NCBI RefSeq assembly: GCF_022662015.1 | Contig: NZ_JAKMCM010000003.1 | Location: 248,001-312,000 of the forward strand | Origin: Aestuariivivens sediminicola | GTDB taxonomy: Bacteria; Bacteroidota; Bacteroidia; Flavobacteriales; Flavobacteriaceae | Length of the DNA stretch: 64,000 nt | Reading direction: 5' to 3' | Shown: in pieces, positions 23,770-29,532 of the stretch | How the letters are laid out: every line of letters starts with the position of its first letter | Position numbering within the stretch: position 1 is the first letter of the stretch | Translations under genes and position numbers: made by a program | The notes under the pieces: model-generated | Databases searched by the model: none | What the model saw: the letters and a program-made list of their open reading frames with translations, nothing else | What the model was told of the DNA's origin: nothing

Positions 23770-23790
23770 TTCTGTAAAACATTAATCTTA

Positions 23791-23827
23791 AAAAGAGCAC
23801 TTATTTAAATAAGTGCTCTTTTTATTT
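23791..23827 (+). terminator. Terminator of carB
   Basis: A perfect 32-base palindrome at 23791-23822 (arm AAAAGAGCACTTAT) followed by T-rich sequence. Confidence 0.88.
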
Positions 23828-24121: not shown

Positions 24122-24664
24122 TTATTTCATTTTCAATTCGAAATCAAAAGAAACTTCAACGGTTTCAGCAATTTTATTTCTGACTATTTTTGGGATTTCA
24201 ATATCGAAATCAGATGCTTGCGCAGTGAATTCACCTATAGTTTTTAACGTATCATTCGTTCTAGATAGGGTAACCTCAACATCTTCAATTTGCTTTGTCT
24301 TTCCATGGAAACTCAATTCTCCAGTTAATATAAACTTAGATTTCTGGTCTAATTTCGACAAGTCAAAGTCTTGAATTTTTCCTTTAAATGTTGCCTTTGG
24401 GAATTTATGCGATTCTGCATAATTTTCATTAAAATGCTCCTCCATTAAGGCATTTTTAAAACGAAATCCCTTAACTAAAACCAAGGCAGCAAACTCGCCG
24501 TTTTCAATATTAAGAATTGCGGTAACGTTATTTGCACTTGCCTTAACTTCTTCGAAAGAGGGTACCGAGGCCTCAAAACCAACCGTTCCAGTTTTTGTTA
24601 GGTATTTAGTTTGTGCCATAAGGGTGGCACTTATTAAGAATAAACAATAAGCTAAAGGTTTCAT
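24122..24664 (-). CDS. YceI family exported lipid-binding protein
   Basis: About 180 residues from the ATG at 24664: a signal peptide ending LMAQ at residue 17 and then a YceI domain, recognisable by FAALVLVKGFRFKNALMEEHFNENY, KFPKATFKGKI and LTGELSFHGKTKQIE. YceI proteins are lipocalin-like barrels in the periplasm that hold isoprenoid quinones or similar lipids. The longer frame to 24703 adds 13 residues before the signal peptide and is unlikely. Last gene of a five-gene leftward unit; 48 bases from the haem c gene. A quinone-binding role beside a cytochrome would fit but is inference. Confidence 0.88.
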   Translation of the reverse strand: MKPLAYCLFLISATLMAQTKYLTKTGTVGFEASVPSFEEVKASANNVTAILNIENGEFAALVLVKGFRFKNALMEEHFNENYAESHKFPKATFKGKIQDFDLSKLDQKSKFILTGELSFHGKTKQIEDVEVTLSRTNDTLKTIGEFTAQASDFDIEIPKIVRNKIAETVEVSFDFELKMK

Positions 24665-24712
24665 ATCTGCTGTTTTTATAAAGGTAAGCAAAAGTCTTAC
24701 CAAAAATTGAAT

Positions 24713-25078
24713 TTAATTTTCCAATAAGCCATCATCTTTCCATTGCTGAACTAATTCACGCGTTGACTGTGGCATAAGTCCGGAGGGCGGCATAGGATTA
24801 GAGGTGTTATTAATGCGACTTATAATGGAATTTACCCGAGTACTTACTTCGGTAAAAGTGGTTAATGAAAAAGGGGCGCTTTGTGTTGGTGGATTACCGT
24901 GACATGCCGTACAGTTATTACTCATTATCGTCGAAATATGCATATCATAAGTAATTGGATTTGGATTGGGATCCGGATCCGGTTCCGGATCGTTTGATAG
25001 ATCGTCACTGCTGCTGCTGGAGCAGGAAAAAGCCAAAAGAACGGAGGCAAACAAGAAGATAAAATTTTTAAAATTCAT
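24713..25078 (-). CDS. Small c-type cytochrome lipoprotein
   Basis: 121 residues. Lipobox LLAFSCSS (Cys at about 19) followed by a serine run, a flexible DPEPDPDPNPNP linker and a mini cytochrome c domain with a single haem site CTACHG (about 56-61) and candidate axial Met residues in NPMPPSGLMPQS. It would be anchored to the outer membrane by lipid with the haem held out on the linker. Resembles one-haem domains fused in planctomycete-type cytochromes. Part of a leftward operon between the DUF5777 barrel and YceI. Redox partners unknown. Confidence 0.85.
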   Translation of the reverse strand: MNFKNFIFLFASVLLAFSCSSSSSDDLSNDPEPDPDPNPNPITYDMHISTIMSNNCTACHGNPPTQSAPFSLTTFTEVSTRVNSIISRINNTSNPMPPSGLMPQSTRELVQQWKDDGLLEN

Positions 25079-25113
25079 AGCGTTATTTATTTAAATTAAT
25101 AAAATTTTCAATT

Positions 25114-25962
25114 CTAAAAGCGTCTACTGAGATTAAATCCGAAATAAATGTCACCCTCGCCCCAATCCCCTGATGCCTGTCCCAAATAGGTATTGGTATT
25201 CATACCTTGTGCATTGGAAAAATGCATCTGGAATACGTGGCCACCGGTTTCTAAATCGAATCCTATCGAAAAAGGATTTTTAAAAGGGGAATTGTCGGCT
25301 CTGTTCATATGCCAGCCGTAGTCCGCATTGATAGACCATCGCTTTCCTAATTTATAGCGCCCGCCGAGCCCGAGAGCAAATTGCGAATTATCCTGTTCGT
25401 CTAATAAAACAAAATTATCATGGAAGAATGTCGGGGCCAGTTCAAAGGAAAAATTCGGACTCACCTTTCTTGAAATTAAAAGTTGTGCAACATAACTCAA
25501 CCTGTGTTTGAATTCCAATAGGGGTAGGTCAATCTTATCGAGTGCCGTGTTAATGAGTACTTCGTTAAAACCCACTATTGTAAATGGAAATCCATTTTCT
25601 TGTTGTCTTAAGAGTCGATACTTTAAAGAGGCCTCATAGATTTTTTGAAAAGAACTTCTGGAAACACCAATGTTTATGCCGTCTGAAATCCCATACACAA
25701 AATTCAGTCGGGTCACCGCTTCATCCAGTCCGAAAAAATTGTCAAATCCATTTTCCAAGCTTCCAAATCGATGCGACACAATGAACGTAAACTCTTTTTT
25801 GGCGACTAGCTTGGTGGATTCAAAATTCACAATCTTTAAACCCTTAAAGGCTGCAATGGTATAGCCATTACTCTCGGTATCAATATCAATTTCATTCAAC
25901 AGATCGTTTTGACTAAAGAGCGATAACGGAATTAAGCATAAAATGTACTTCAAGTATTTCAT
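25114..25962 (-). CDS. DUF5777 family outer-membrane beta-barrel protein
   Basis: 282 residues with a signal peptide ending LFSQ, then alternating beta strands typical of an outer-membrane barrel, ending in Phe (NLSRRF), the usual C-terminal sorting signal for barrels. The segments KEFTFIVSHRFGSLENGFDNFFGLDE and INIGVSRSSFQKIYEASLKYRLLRQ match the Bacteroidota family DUF5777. Such genes often neighbour cytochrome c and YceI genes, as here. Might be a porin-like partner of the haem lipoprotein (inference); no channel specificity can be seen. Confidence 0.82.
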   Translation of the reverse strand: MKYLKYILCLIPLSLFSQNDLLNEIDIDTESNGYTIAAFKGLKIVNFESTKLVAKKEFTFIVSHRFGSLENGFDNFFGLDEAVTRLNFVYGISDGINIGVSRSSFQKIYEASLKYRLLRQQENGFPFTIVGFNEVLINTALDKIDLPLLEFKHRLSYVAQLLISRKVSPNFSFELAPTFFHDNFVLLDEQDNSQFALGLGGRYKLGKRWSINADYGWHMNRADNSPFKNPFSIGFDLETGGHVFQMHFSNAQGMNTNTYLGQASGDWGEGDIYFGFNLSRRF

Positions 25963-25974
25963 ATCTTATATTGG

Positions 25975-26817
25975 TTATAGTTTAATAAACGGTATTATGT
26001 CATAGTTTTTATCAGTGTTTATACGCAAAAAATACATGCCTTTTAACAGATTAGAGACATCTATGGCAGCATCAATAAGAGCGTAATCAACAATTTGTTT
26101 ACCCAAAATGTCTGTTACTTGAATGGATTGGATATCCAACATATTCGGGTTTTTAAGACGAATATACTTGGTGGTAGGATTAGGGTATATACCAAATGAA
26201 ATAATATTTGTTATTCGGGTACTAAGAGTTGTAAGGGCCTCAATATTATCAATTTGTAAAGTGGCCTCAACAGAATCACCGCGCCAAGAAGGTACAGAAC
26301 TACTCAAAATTCTCATAGCAGTTACGTTTTGAAGGGTATTGTTAATACTGGTTCCTCCTGCTAGAAGTGTAAAATCTGAAGCGCTTATTGGAATAATAAA
26401 TTCTTCCCAAGAATTTCCGGCCGTTATTAAAATAGCATCCGAAGTACAAATTTGACCACCATCACCATCAAATGCGATTCTTAAATTTAAATTATTGGTT
26501 ATGGCTTTGGCAAAACATTTTATAGCTACAATTCCTTGGCTATTAAAATTACCGGTCCATTGTGAGGTATTGTACATCACCATTCTACTTCCAGCACCGG
26601 TACCTCCACTTGAGACATTTTGTAAATAATTATCATTTATTCCATCAGGACCTCCAGTTGAAATATTTGTTGGAGGATTGGGTGATATTGTGAAGCCACC
26701 TTCTTGCCATGATTGTACGGTTCCATTTTCGAAATCATCCACCTGATTTGCAGTAATTTGTGAAGATATTGTGGTGGATACTAGAATAAATAATGATAAC
26801 AAAACTAACTTTTTCAT
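25975..26817 (-). CDS. Type IX secretion cargo with a carbohydrate-binding-like domain
   Basis: 280 residues: a signal peptide ending ISSQ (about 20), a beta-sandwich region of about 180 residues (VDDFENGTVQSWQEGG, LQNVSSGGTGAGSRMVMY, IDNIEALTT) like CBM/galactose-binding folds, and a C-terminal type A sorting domain of about 75 residues (FGIYPNPTTKYIRLKNP, VTDILGKQIVDYALI, VSNLLKGMYFLRI). The sorting domain directs export across the outer membrane by the gliding-linked type IX machinery and surface attachment. No catalytic domain is present, so it is a surface binding or adhesive protein. It lies between the OB-fold and DUF5777 genes. Confidence 0.85.
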   Translation of the reverse strand: MKKLVLLSLFILVSTTISSQITANQVDDFENGTVQSWQEGGFTISPNPPTNISTGGPDGINDNYLQNVSSGGTGAGSRMVMYNTSQWTGNFNSQGIVAIKCFAKAITNNLNLRIAFDGDGGQICTSDAILITAGNSWEEFIIPISASDFTLLAGGTSINNTLQNVTAMRILSSSVPSWRGDSVEATLQIDNIEALTTLSTRITNIISFGIYPNPTTKYIRLKNPNMLDIQSIQVTDILGKQIVDYALIDAAIDVSNLLKGMYFLRINTDKNYDIIPFIKL

Positions 26818-26832
26818 AAGGTTTGATTGACT

Positions 26833-27210
26833 TTAGTTCGACATACTGCACTGGTCTAATTTGATTTCTTCTAACAAATCATCATAGCCTATAAAACGAC
26901 CCTTCACCTTTATTGAATTATCTTTTTGGAGTGCCACTATATCTTCAGAAAATTGACAAAACACTTTGTTGTCCAAAATAATTGTATTCTCATTGATCGC
27001 AGTAACAATACCAGAAATTTCCATAGTTTGATTAAGGTATTTCGTTTCAGAACTTACAGGATCTATTTCAAATTGCTCTGCAAGTATTTTGGCATCTATT
27101 ACAAAGGCTGGTTTTTCTTTTTCTATGTTCCTGTGGTCCTGATAAATATAATTATAACCAATGATGAAAATTATAATACCGATGATTAGAATGAAAGCAA
27201 ATTTCTTCAT
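26833..27210 (-). CDS. Membrane-anchored OB-fold (tRNA_anti-like) protein
   Basis: 125 residues. One membrane segment at about 4-22, then a domain of about 95 residues with MEISGIVTAINENTIILDNKVFCQFSEDI and SIKVKGRFIGYDDLLEEIKLDQC, which fits the OB-fold family called tRNA_anti-like. In exported form it would face the periplasm, where nucleic-acid binding is unlikely; other OB folds bind sugars or proteins. Two cysteines, one in VFCQF and one in LDQC, could form a disulfide. First gene of the five-gene leftward unit. Function unknown. Confidence 0.65.
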   Translation of the reverse strand: MKKFAFILIIGIIIFIIGYNYIYQDHRNIEKEKPAFVIDAKILAEQFEIDPVSSETKYLNQTMEISGIVTAINENTIILDNKVFCQFSEDIVALQKDNSIKVKGRFIGYDDLLEEIKLDQCSMSN

Positions 27211-27525: not shown

Positions 27526-28062
27526 TTACAAATCGATTTTAGCATTATGTTTTTTAATTACTGCCAGATGCTCCTCAATTTTAAATTCAGATGATTTAAA
27601 TTTAGTGGTTCGATGCCTGGCTTGTTCCTGTCTTGCTATGCTTCTCGAGAATCGTCTAATACTCTGTTCGTCTTCCAGTATTAAACCAGGTACAGGTGCA
27701 TTTCTTCCATTGTCATCCTTTGCTACCATGGTAAAATAGGATGAATTGCAGTGTTTTGTAATTCCAGTCTGAATGTTTTCGGCTTCAACTCTAACGCCAA
27801 TCACCATGGACGTGCGTCCCGTATAATTTACAGAGGCTTTTAAAGTAACGAGTTCGCCAACATCGATAGGCTCTAAAAAATCGACCCTGTTCACCGATGC
27901 GGTAACACAATAGTGTTGTGAATGACGAGATGCACAGGCAAAAGCAATCTGATCCATTAAATTTAAGATGTAGCCACCATGTATTTTGCCACTAAAATTA
28001 GAATTGGCCGGCAGCATGAGTTCCGTAATGGACACCTGAGAGTCTTTTACACTTTTAAACAT
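27526..28062 (-). CDS. Acyl-CoA thioesterase (YciA/BFIT-like hotdog)
   Basis: 178 residues with one hotdog domain: GKIHGGYILNLMDQIAFACA (about 25-44, with the catalytic Asp in LMDQ) and VELL-like strand VTLKASVNYTGRTSMVIGVRVEAE. Hydrolyses acyl-CoA thioesters in the cytoplasm. The C-terminal charged helix after about 130 (RRFSRSIARQEQARHR) is longer than in E. coli YciA (about 132 residues). Chain-length specificity unknown. Single leftward gene. Confidence 0.88.
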   Translation of the reverse strand: MFKSVKDSQVSITELMLPANSNFSGKIHGGYILNLMDQIAFACASRHSQHYCVTASVNRVDFLEPIDVGELVTLKASVNYTGRTSMVIGVRVEAENIQTGITKHCNSSYFTMVAKDDNGRNAPVPGLILEDEQSIRRFSRSIARQEQARHRTTKFKSSEFKIEEHLAVIKKHNAKIDL

Positions 28063-28212
28063 GGAATTTTAGAATTTGAAATTATTAAGTACTGTTTGAT
28101 TCGGAAATTTAAAAACGATGGAGTGTTTTTTATGTTGTATTCTTTAAACGGTATATGTTTGATTTTCAATCGTCTAATCCAGTAAAGGTACTTCTTAAAC
28201 ACAAGAGGCACC

Positions 28213-29532
28213 TTACTCTTCTTCATCAGCACGCTTAATAATGGCCTCAGGAAGTGATTTTTTGGCTTTGGCCCCCATTTTTTTGAGTTTTTCAATGCTC
28301 ACGATTATGTTACCTCTTCCTTCAACTAATTTATTCATAGCAGCTGAATAGTTTGATTTTGCTCGGTCTATATCTTTACCAACACCCGTCAAATCCTTTA
28401 CCAAACCTTCGAATTTGTCATACAAGGCACCCGCCTGACGCGCAATTTCAATCGCGTTACGCTGTTGTTTTTCATTATTCCACATAGTATCTATGGTGCG
28501 TAGTGTAGCCAAGAGCGTAGAAGGTGTAACGATGACAATATTCTTCTCGAATGCTTTATTATAAATGCTGTTGTCCTCGTTTACTACAATAGCAAAGGCA
28601 GGTTCAATGGGAATAAACATGAGTACAAAATCGGGTGATTCAATGTCGTATAAATCCTGATAGTTCTTTTCCGAAAGCTGATCCACATGTTTTCGAACCG
28701 AGTTAATATGAGCCTTTAAAAATGGTAACTTGTTGTCCTCATCGGCATTTGAAAATCGTTCGTAATCGGTCAAAGATACTTTCGAATCGATAATCATTTT
28801 TTTGTTATCCGGAAGATACAGCACCACATCCGGCATAACACGGGAACCATCAGACCGCGTAAAACTTTGTTGTACAAAATATTCTCGGTCTTTCTCCAGG
28901 CCTGATTTTTCCAGAACACGTTCGAGAACCAATTCACCCCAGTTACCCTGCATTTTGCTATCGCCTTTCAAAGCGCGTGTCAGGTTTGTAGCTTCTTTGG
29001 CCATCTGTTGATTGAGGTCTTTTAATCCCAATAACTGCTCTTTCAATGCAGAATGCATACTTATACTCTCCTTTTGCGATTCATTCACTTTTTTCTCGAA
29101 ATCTTCAATTCGCTTTTGAAGAGGATTTAAAATATTCTTAATGTTTTCTTTATTCTGTTCGGTAAACTTGCTTGATTTTTCCTCCAGGATTTTACTTGCC
29201 AAAAGTTCAAAATCCTTGCGCAGTTGTTCTTGGCGTGCTTCTAATTCTTTTTCTTGTTTTAAAAATTGCTGTTTTAGATTATCGTGTTCAGTACTTTTCT
29301 TTACAAATTCAGTATTCAAGAGCTCCTTTTCATCCCTCAGGGTATCCCGTTCAATTTCTGTTTTTGTTAAGTTCTTTTTAAATTCCTCTAAAGTCAATCC
29401 CAGCTGATTTTGTCGCTCCTGTAAAGTGCTTTTTTCACTTTTACTTTTTAATTTACCATAAATTAAACCGAGGAAACCTCCAATAAAAGCAGAAACTAAA
29501 ATGGTTAGAATTAAAATGAGGTTATCGTTCAT
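28213..29532 (-). CDS. rmuC: DNA recombination protein RmuC
   Basis: 439 residues. One N-terminal membrane segment (about 4-24), a coiled coil from about 30 to 190, then the RmuC nuclease-like domain: GNWGELVLERVLEKSGLEKD, MPDVVLYLPDNKKMIIDSKVSL and FVLMFIPIEPAFAIV, where the DV..D.K pattern resembles the PD-(D/E)xK fold. RmuC limits inversions between inverted repeats in E. coli and has been proposed to be anti-phage related. No operon partner is evident; the next leftward gene upstream ends at a strong terminator. Confidence 0.93.
   Translation of the reverse strand: MNDNLILILTILVSAFIGGFLGLIYGKLKSKSEKSTLQERQNQLGLTLEEFKKNLTKTEIERDTLRDEKELLNTEFVKKSTEHDNLKQQFLKQEKELEARQEQLRKDFELLASKILEEKSSKFTEQNKENIKNILNPLQKRIEDFEKKVNESQKESISMHSALKEQLLGLKDLNQQMAKEATNLTRALKGDSKMQGNWGELVLERVLEKSGLEKDREYFVQQSFTRSDGSRVMPDVVLYLPDNKKMIIDSKVSLTDYERFSNADEDNKLPFLKAHINSVRKHVDQLSEKNYQDLYDIESPDFVLMFIPIEPAFAIVVNEDNSIYNKAFEKNIVIVTPSTLLATLRTIDTMWNNEKQQRNAIEIARQAGALYDKFEGLVKDLTGVGKDIDRAKSNYSAAMNKLVEGRGNIIVSIEKLKKMGAKAKKSLPEAIIKRADEEE

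Follow-up and report, generated by a model that had tools for sequence, protein, structure and literature searches.

A conserved Bacteroidota gene cassette pairs a DUF5777 barrel with exchangeable electron carriers and a YceI lipocalin in a putative outer-membrane redox module

Cyc2, the fused cytochrome-porin of Fe(II) oxidisers, joins one haem to an outer-membrane barrel, and the porin-cytochrome complexes MtrABC, PioAB and Geobacter OmbB/OmaB/OmcB combine a barrel with cytochromes in outer-membrane electron transfer (PMC6344600, available part). According to the same part of that source, Bacteroidetes have putative novel genes of porin-cytochrome type as well as homologues of Cyc2, and outer-membrane electron transfer in this phylum is thus not itself a new idea. 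YceI proteins bind ubiquinone-8 (UQ-8), and other bacteria pair them with cytochromes, according to the available portions of PMC8981238 and PMC9113575. Here we analyze a five-gene operon with a DUF5777 barrel in a 64,000-nucleotide stretch of Aestuariivivens sediminicola (contig NZ_JAKMCM010000003.1, positions 248,001 to 312,000; hereafter the window), which an earlier reading of the sequence, the original prediction, had singled out as its best candidate for an undescribed system. The term DUF5777 alone had no match in the open literature that we searched, and the unit is called undescribed with respect to that literature only. On balance we lean towards the operon being an outer-membrane electron-transfer (redox) module linked to quinones, an apparently undescribed unit whose most likely task is one-electron transfer, perhaps linking quinones of the envelope to the cell surface.

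The operon comprises five open reading frames (ORFs), all on the minus strand and running from 27210 to 24122, that encode in order of transcription an OB-fold protein, a type IX secretion cargo, a DUF5777 barrel, a one-haem lipoprotein and a YceI-family protein. ORF calls with mechanical starts and Pfam matches bear out this composition as first proposed, and export of the products was judged by reading their N-terminal sequences. We prefer ATG 24664 as the YceI start over the mechanical TTG at 24703 because the ATG gives a more usual signal peptide, and with this start the gaps, predicted at 11–48 bases, recompute to 15, 12, 35 and 48 bases.

Gene content in the cassette is conserved, its genes co-evolve and its electron carrier is exchanged between loci. 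We examined three samples of DUF5777 copies with a total of 251: 100 copies from 149 genomes of the same family, window included; 94 copies from 80 named loci, which are the best 80 of at least 583 relatives confirmed in a collection scan and overlap the 149-genome sample; and 57 copies from the wider phylum, from 60 loci chosen by hand, not at random, among matches outside the window's family, three of which (L278, L300 and L305) yielded no DUF5777 ORF and were left out. Partial DUF5777 matches of genomes G008 and G046 and a weak third match of G062 were also left out, and protein kinds beyond those named by Pfam come from profiles built in this analysis. Within five genes of the barrel, the 100 family copies have OB in 79 cases, YceI in 83, a matching cytochrome in 85 and all three in 68, and the 94 copies of the named loci have them in 88, 93, 77 and 73. 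The core occurs in several gene orders, including OB–cargo–barrel–cytochrome–YceI, cytochrome–YceI–OB–barrel, OB–YceI–barrel and two divergent arms. Presence of the cytochrome tracks presence of DUF5777 across the 149 genomes, with both in 61, cytochrome only in 1, DUF5777 only in 10 and neither in 77 at E 1e-14, and corresponding counts of 65, 15, 6 and 63 at E 1e-8. At 30 loci with carB, distances among barrel, cytochrome, YceI and OB proteins correlate after removal of the carB signal (partial r 0.37–0.75; 0 of 500 permutations as high). Together, these data define barrel, cytochrome, YceI and OB protein as a conserved unit that co-evolves beyond the species signal. The original prediction named partners that do not co-occur in other genomes as grounds for its rejection; these four co-occur and co-localize, and its idea of outer-membrane electron transfer or quinone handling is largely supported by this linkage, by co-evolution and by the interchange of one-electron carriers.

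The carrier in the operon is a one-haem c-type cytochrome lipoprotein with an acidic Pro/Asp-rich linker (24713..25078, minus strand), recognized by a CTACH motif and matching Cytochrome_CBB3 below cut-off (E 0.001). The haem-binding motif occupies residues 56–60 (24899..24913, minus strand), Met 96 is the likely second haem ligand, and residues C56, C59, H60 and M96 are invariant in 14 of 14 sequences. One-haem lipoproteins of this kind are the usual carrier, and 161 of 167 have a Met-Pro or Met-Lys pair 20–60 residues past the haem motif, a conserved methionine that probably serves as second haem ligand judging from the sequences; a PDB sequence search with the lipoprotein cytochrome returned only weak c6/CcoP-type matches. 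Counting any ORF of fewer than 180 residues with CxxCH or CxxxxCH as a haem carrier, we find a redox carrier within four genes of 92/100, 88/94 and 53/57 barrels, versus 5 of 296 control genes from the same loci. The controls are six or more genes away from any core gene, toward the locus ends, and therefore have fewer neighbors (1555 for 296 controls versus 1910 for 251 copies). When type IX blue-copper cargos are disregarded, the carrier counts are unchanged and the frequencies per neighbor are 297/1910 and 5/1555. A Lipoprotein_15 protein takes the carrier place in second cassettes of many Flavobacteriaceae (PF03640 in L150, others by motif), a Rieske protein does so elsewhere in the phylum (L263, L268, L281, L299 and L282), and a blue-copper (cupredoxin) lipoprotein does so in L292 (PF00127, E 8.3e-14). 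Tandem second cassettes in L150, L154, L163, L164 and L176 consist of a small HMA-like protein, a Lipoprotein_15 (SCO0930-like) lipoprotein, OB, YceI and DUF5777.

The barrel gene (25114..25962, minus strand) encodes a full-length DUF5777 protein that matches PF19089 over positions 1–247 of 247 (304.8 bits against a cut-off of 23.1, E 5e-91). Within the window's family 71 of 149 genomes have DUF5777, and across the phylum 115 of 296 do, 5 of these with no more than weak matches; none of 14 control genomes has it. The 282-residue model is a predicted 12-strand outer-membrane beta barrel (predicted local distance difference test, pLDDT, 88.6; predicted template modelling score, pTM, 0.81), and Pfam finds no TonB-dependent plug in it. 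Its nearest solved folds include the small porin KdgM (Z 18.0, 2.1 Å over 166 residues) and FapF (Z 18.2, 4.0 Å over 213 residues), with fold neighbors KdgM, NanC, FapF and FadL-type barrels at 6–14% identity; we dropped fold search as a route to function, as these neighbors imply none. In locus L289 a single 421-residue ORF behind one signal peptide carries both a CxxxxCH haem domain and DUF5777, and the next gene encodes a haem lipoprotein of its own. The cassette-cytochrome profile recognizes the haem part of the fusion (E 1.3e-7 when that one sequence is searched), which shares 43% identity with the neighboring haem protein.

The last gene of the operon encodes a YceI-family periplasmic lipocalin (24122..24664, minus strand; PF04264, E 1.3e-13, 52 bits against a cut-off of 23.7) for which a PDB sequence search found no solved relative. 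Three more YceI genes in this genome outscore it in Pfam (G000:C15:58329-58808, C15:349543-350022 and C10:912562-913053). The first gene encodes an OB-fold protein of the tRNA_anti-like family PF12869 with an N-terminal hydrophobic anchor (26833..27210, minus strand; E 1.8e-9). By our own profiles YceI lies near 217 of the 251 DUF5777 copies, an Fe-S protein and NrfD take its place in 15, neither is found in 19 and both in 0. We rejected a strict exclusion of YceI and NrfD because in L254 Pfam recognizes a divergent YceI (E 3.8e-8) adjoining a cluster of NrfD type. Pfam confirms Fer4_11 and NrfD in L108, where the nearest NCBIfam models are DsrO/DsrP and QrcC/QrcD, below cut-offs. NrfD-type clusters read 6-haem cytochrome, haem lipoprotein, barrel, small Tat-like protein, Fe-S protein, NrfD, another protein and cytochrome c, and some add an ethylbenzene-dehydrogenase-type domain, PF09459, which we take to be a haem b domain. 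The second DUF5777 copy of this genome, in locus L073 (G000:C10:574001-592000; barrel G000:C10:584208-584984), is NrfD-type by layout and profile, and its cluster suggests a pathway to the outer membrane that is linked to menaquinone. A multihaem cytochrome occurs near 10 of the 100 family copies, and the 6-haem proteins in L108 and L073 bear a weak resemblance to MtrC/MtrF. At two further loci, a Haem_bd plus cytochrome P460 protein directly precedes a DUF5777 cassette (L078:7956-8966), and a DUF5777 cluster lies a few genes ahead of a cytochrome c and a COX1-family protein whose nearest model, ccoN, is far below cut-off (L261:6316-8101).

Between OB and barrel lies the type IX secretion cargo (25975..26817, minus strand; Por_Secre_tail, E 5.6e-12), which occupies an optional and exchangeable surface-protein slot. 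Pfam and a fold match agree on a C-terminal sorting domain of type IX cargos at residues 210–280 (25978..26190, minus strand; PF18962, E 5.6e-12; 8glk, Z 11.3, 1.7 Å over 73 residues). The AlphaFold2 model of the cargo is of moderate quality (mean pLDDT 74, pTM 0.58), and on this model the nearest solved fold is CBM11 (Z 13.7, 3.3 Å over 151 residues), giving residues 22–206 (26200..26754, minus strand) a CBM11/CBM22/CBM30-like jelly-roll domain at fold level only. The sugar-binding-like domain first predicted for the cargo is thus matched in fold to a carbohydrate-binding module (CBM), and Pfam names no CBM family in it. A type IX cargo lies within four genes of 39/100, 41/94 and 9/57 DUF5777 copies, and the predicted link to a surface binding protein thus finds partial support. 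That protein is no fixed part, its kind changing between genera: the same slot elsewhere holds blue-copper, DOMON or lamin-tail-like (below cut-off) proteins, or nothing. Blue-copper cargos keep four copper ligands invariant in 15 of 15, with PF00127 in the two tested, and PF03351 is present in the one DOMON cargo tested (L091). In the same locus an ankyrin-repeat protein named by Pfam directly precedes the type IX DOMON protein beside the cassette (L091:3875-5180), and similar-sized ORF pairs occur in L129, L166, L184 and L200.

Blue-copper cargos also occur away from the cassette. Picking by eye among the matches listed, and leaving out one partial second domain, we counted, across the 149 genomes, at least 35 blue-copper cargos of full length; DUF5777 is present in the genomes of 19 of them (17 adjoining it) and absent from those of 16. 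At the 18 loci away from DUF5777 (the 16 and two more), an ORF the size of carB (948–957 residues) lies within two genes in 17 of 18, and the OB gene is kept at one of the 18, L244. The type IX cargo as an obligate partner was accordingly rejected, given the 16 blue-copper cargos, among the matches listed, in genomes without DUF5777. Since these proteins also lie near carB-sized ORFs where no cassette is found, they are better seen as residents of the locus that may cooperate with the cassette than as a defining part of it. Throughout the Flavobacteriaceae this family of type IX blue-copper proteins occurs near carB whether or not a DUF5777 cassette is present (L230–L247, also L034, L099 and others).

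On the downstream side, a palindromic terminator-like hairpin at 23789..23824, on neither strand in particular, lies between the operon and the convergent carB; it is a consensus match in a region with 4 such matches versus 2.6 in shuffles. No promoter of the operon was recognizable, as sigma-70-like matches were at chance level (16 versus 16.8 in shuffles). The thioesterase and RmuC genes upstream (window 27526-29532) adjoin the cassette in other genera too, as read from sequence in L057, L091 and L099.

The redox reading best explains these observations because barrel and carrier go together either with a membrane module of quinone-reactive type, NrfD, or with a lipocalin of a quinone-holding family. 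For location, docking, the YceI ligand, membrane passage and direction we infer the following scheme. The DUF5777 barrel would sit in the outer membrane and hold or dock the one-haem lipoprotein, which would accept and donate one electron at a time. YceI, whose family is known to bind UQ-8 and other polyisoprenoids, would ferry a quinone-type or isoprenoid partner from the inner membrane to the carrier, perhaps assisted at this step by the anchored OB protein. Electrons would most likely pass from the quinone pool through the carrier to an acceptor at the outer membrane or outside it, and the surface partner could in some genera be a blue-copper or DOMON protein exported by the type IX system.

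Several points weigh against this scheme. No structure places the haem inside or at the barrel, and a 12-strand barrel with one haem is unlikely on its own to span the membrane with redox centers. The fusion of haem domain and barrel rests on one genome because the single family relative of L289 matched partially, over the barrel; in the fused ORF itself Pfam finds only the barrel and no haem domain, and in its neighbor nothing. In the two Flavobacteriaceae-type samples 14 of 194 copies have no recognized carrier within four genes, as have 4 of 57 in the phylum sample, and at the looser E 1e-8 a cytochrome match occurs without DUF5777 in 15 genomes. The cargo of this operon has a sugar-binding-like fold and is not a redox protein, and cargos are dispensable. 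Exposure of the lipoprotein at the surface is likewise unproven. In the available part of PMC5080379 the surface lipoprotein export signal (LES) is an acid-rich motif that follows the lipid cysteine at +2 to +6, and the acidic stretch of cassette haem lipoproteins peaks at +6 to +8; 30% of them have at least two acidic residues at +2 to +6, versus 48% of other lipoproteins. The operon lipoprotein reads C-SSSSS-DD, with acid at +7/+8. We therefore rejected a canonical LES for the haem lipoprotein, and with acid farther from the lipid cysteine than in the published signal the protein may face the periplasm. At +6 to +8 the cassette cytochromes share a conserved acidic motif, which reads C-S/T-x-x-S-E/D-D-D-L and may be a different sorting signal.

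A bolder form of the electron-transfer reading, which we hold only tentatively, is that DUF5777 is a new phylum-wide trans-outer-membrane conduit in which a narrow barrel works with an exchangeable single-center carrier (haem c, Rieske or blue copper), is fed by YceI-borne quinone or an NrfD module, and in some genera hands electrons to type IX surface redox proteins. If true, common Bacteroidota could trade electrons with their surroundings and would need no large multihaem cytochromes to do so. Searches for outer-membrane electron transfer by multihaem cytochromes or Cyc2, as described in the available part of PMC6344600, would miss the DUF5777 arrangement. The cassette supplies a testable role for a family of unknown function and a defined YceI partner in the phylum, and its natural carrier swaps make the claim of electron transfer directly testable.

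The strongest alternative, unlikely but to be taken seriously, is an antioxidant system like BcnA/LcoA in which a YceI-borne reduced isoprenoid quinone quenches lipid peroxyl radicals of the outer membrane, the haem lipoprotein re-reduces or drains it, and nothing crosses the membrane. The lipocalin BcnA belongs to the YceI family and is linked to cytochrome b561, and loss of BcnA raises lipid peroxidation (PMC9113575, available part); the presence of YceI near 217 of 251 DUF5777 copies fits such a role. The operon, however, has no cytochrome b561 gene; other cassettes were not searched for one. The only match in this genome to PF01292, presumably the family containing bacterial cytochrome b561, is on another contig. 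An antioxidant role also leaves unexplained the barrel, the type IX blue-copper cargos and the NrfD version that has no recognized YceI.

Electron supply to a surface enzyme, as in Cbp2D/Cbp2E of Cellvibrio, feeding a lytic polysaccharide monooxygenase (LPMO) or similar enzyme, appears distinctly improbable. The CBM-like, YceI and small cytochrome c proteins are encoded by neighboring genes in the operon, and CjX183 reduces LPMOs according to the available part of PMC8981238. Yet LPMO_10 (PF03067, the sole LPMO family searched) occurs in 3 of 149 family genomes and not in this one, a scarcity that leads us to reject LPMO reductant supply or at least to weaken it, and CBM-like cargos lie near only 5/100 and 8/94 copies. 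Slightly less credible again is metal or haem uptake or copper handling, in which the barrel would admit metal or haem and cupredoxin and HMA-like neighbors would handle copper. Blue-copper cargos, the small proteins resembling HMA that adjoin some second cassettes (HMA E 0.031, below cut-off) and FecCD/BtuCD-looking ABC-transporter genes near the cassette in L057, L091 and L099 (read from sequence, neighbor frequency not counted) speak for it, but DUF5777 has no TonB-dependent plug and the carriers include Rieske and haem c proteins. That unrelated exported proteins merely gathered at a hot spot beside carB is hardly credible, for while the carB neighborhood holds exchangeable type IX cargos even where no cassette is present, the core stays together in several gene orders, at other sites and outside the family, and its co-evolution exceeds the carB signal, which already contradicts such a gathering for barrel, carrier and YceI, the type IX cargo not included.

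Set beside described systems, the module we favor has a set of parts found in none of Cyc2, the porin-cytochrome complexes, BcnA/LcoA or Cbp2D/Cbp2E, and shares features with each. Like Cyc2, as compared by description, it joins one c-type haem with a small outer-membrane barrel, and the DUF5777 relative in L289 is such a fusion; unlike Cyc2, the operon keeps haem and barrel in two genes, its haem protein is a lipoprotein, and genes for YceI and OB accompany them. Like the porin-cytochrome complexes, it has a barrel and a c-type cytochrome in one operon, and several NrfD-type DUF5777 clusters add a 6-haem cytochrome. The MtrB barrel is wide and holds a multihaem cytochrome, whereas the operon has one CxxCH and no 8- to 12-haem cytochrome, and its barrel of 12 predicted strands would be too narrow for a multihaem core. 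In BcnA/LcoA a YceI lipocalin gene also lies beside a redox protein gene (PMC9113575, available part), but the cassette carrier is a c-haem lipoprotein, Rieske or blue-copper protein accompanied by an outer-membrane barrel. Cbp2D of Cellvibrio japonicus unites CBM, YceI (X158) and small c cytochromes (X183) in one protein, as the available part of PMC8981238 describes for Cbp2D/Cbp2E, whereas the operon has these on separate genes, adds a barrel and belongs to a genome that lacks LPMO_10. As far as the available parts of these sources go, Cbp2D and BcnA/LcoA indicate by analogy that the pairing of YceI with a cytochrome, which the DUF5777 cassette shares, is a redox theme.

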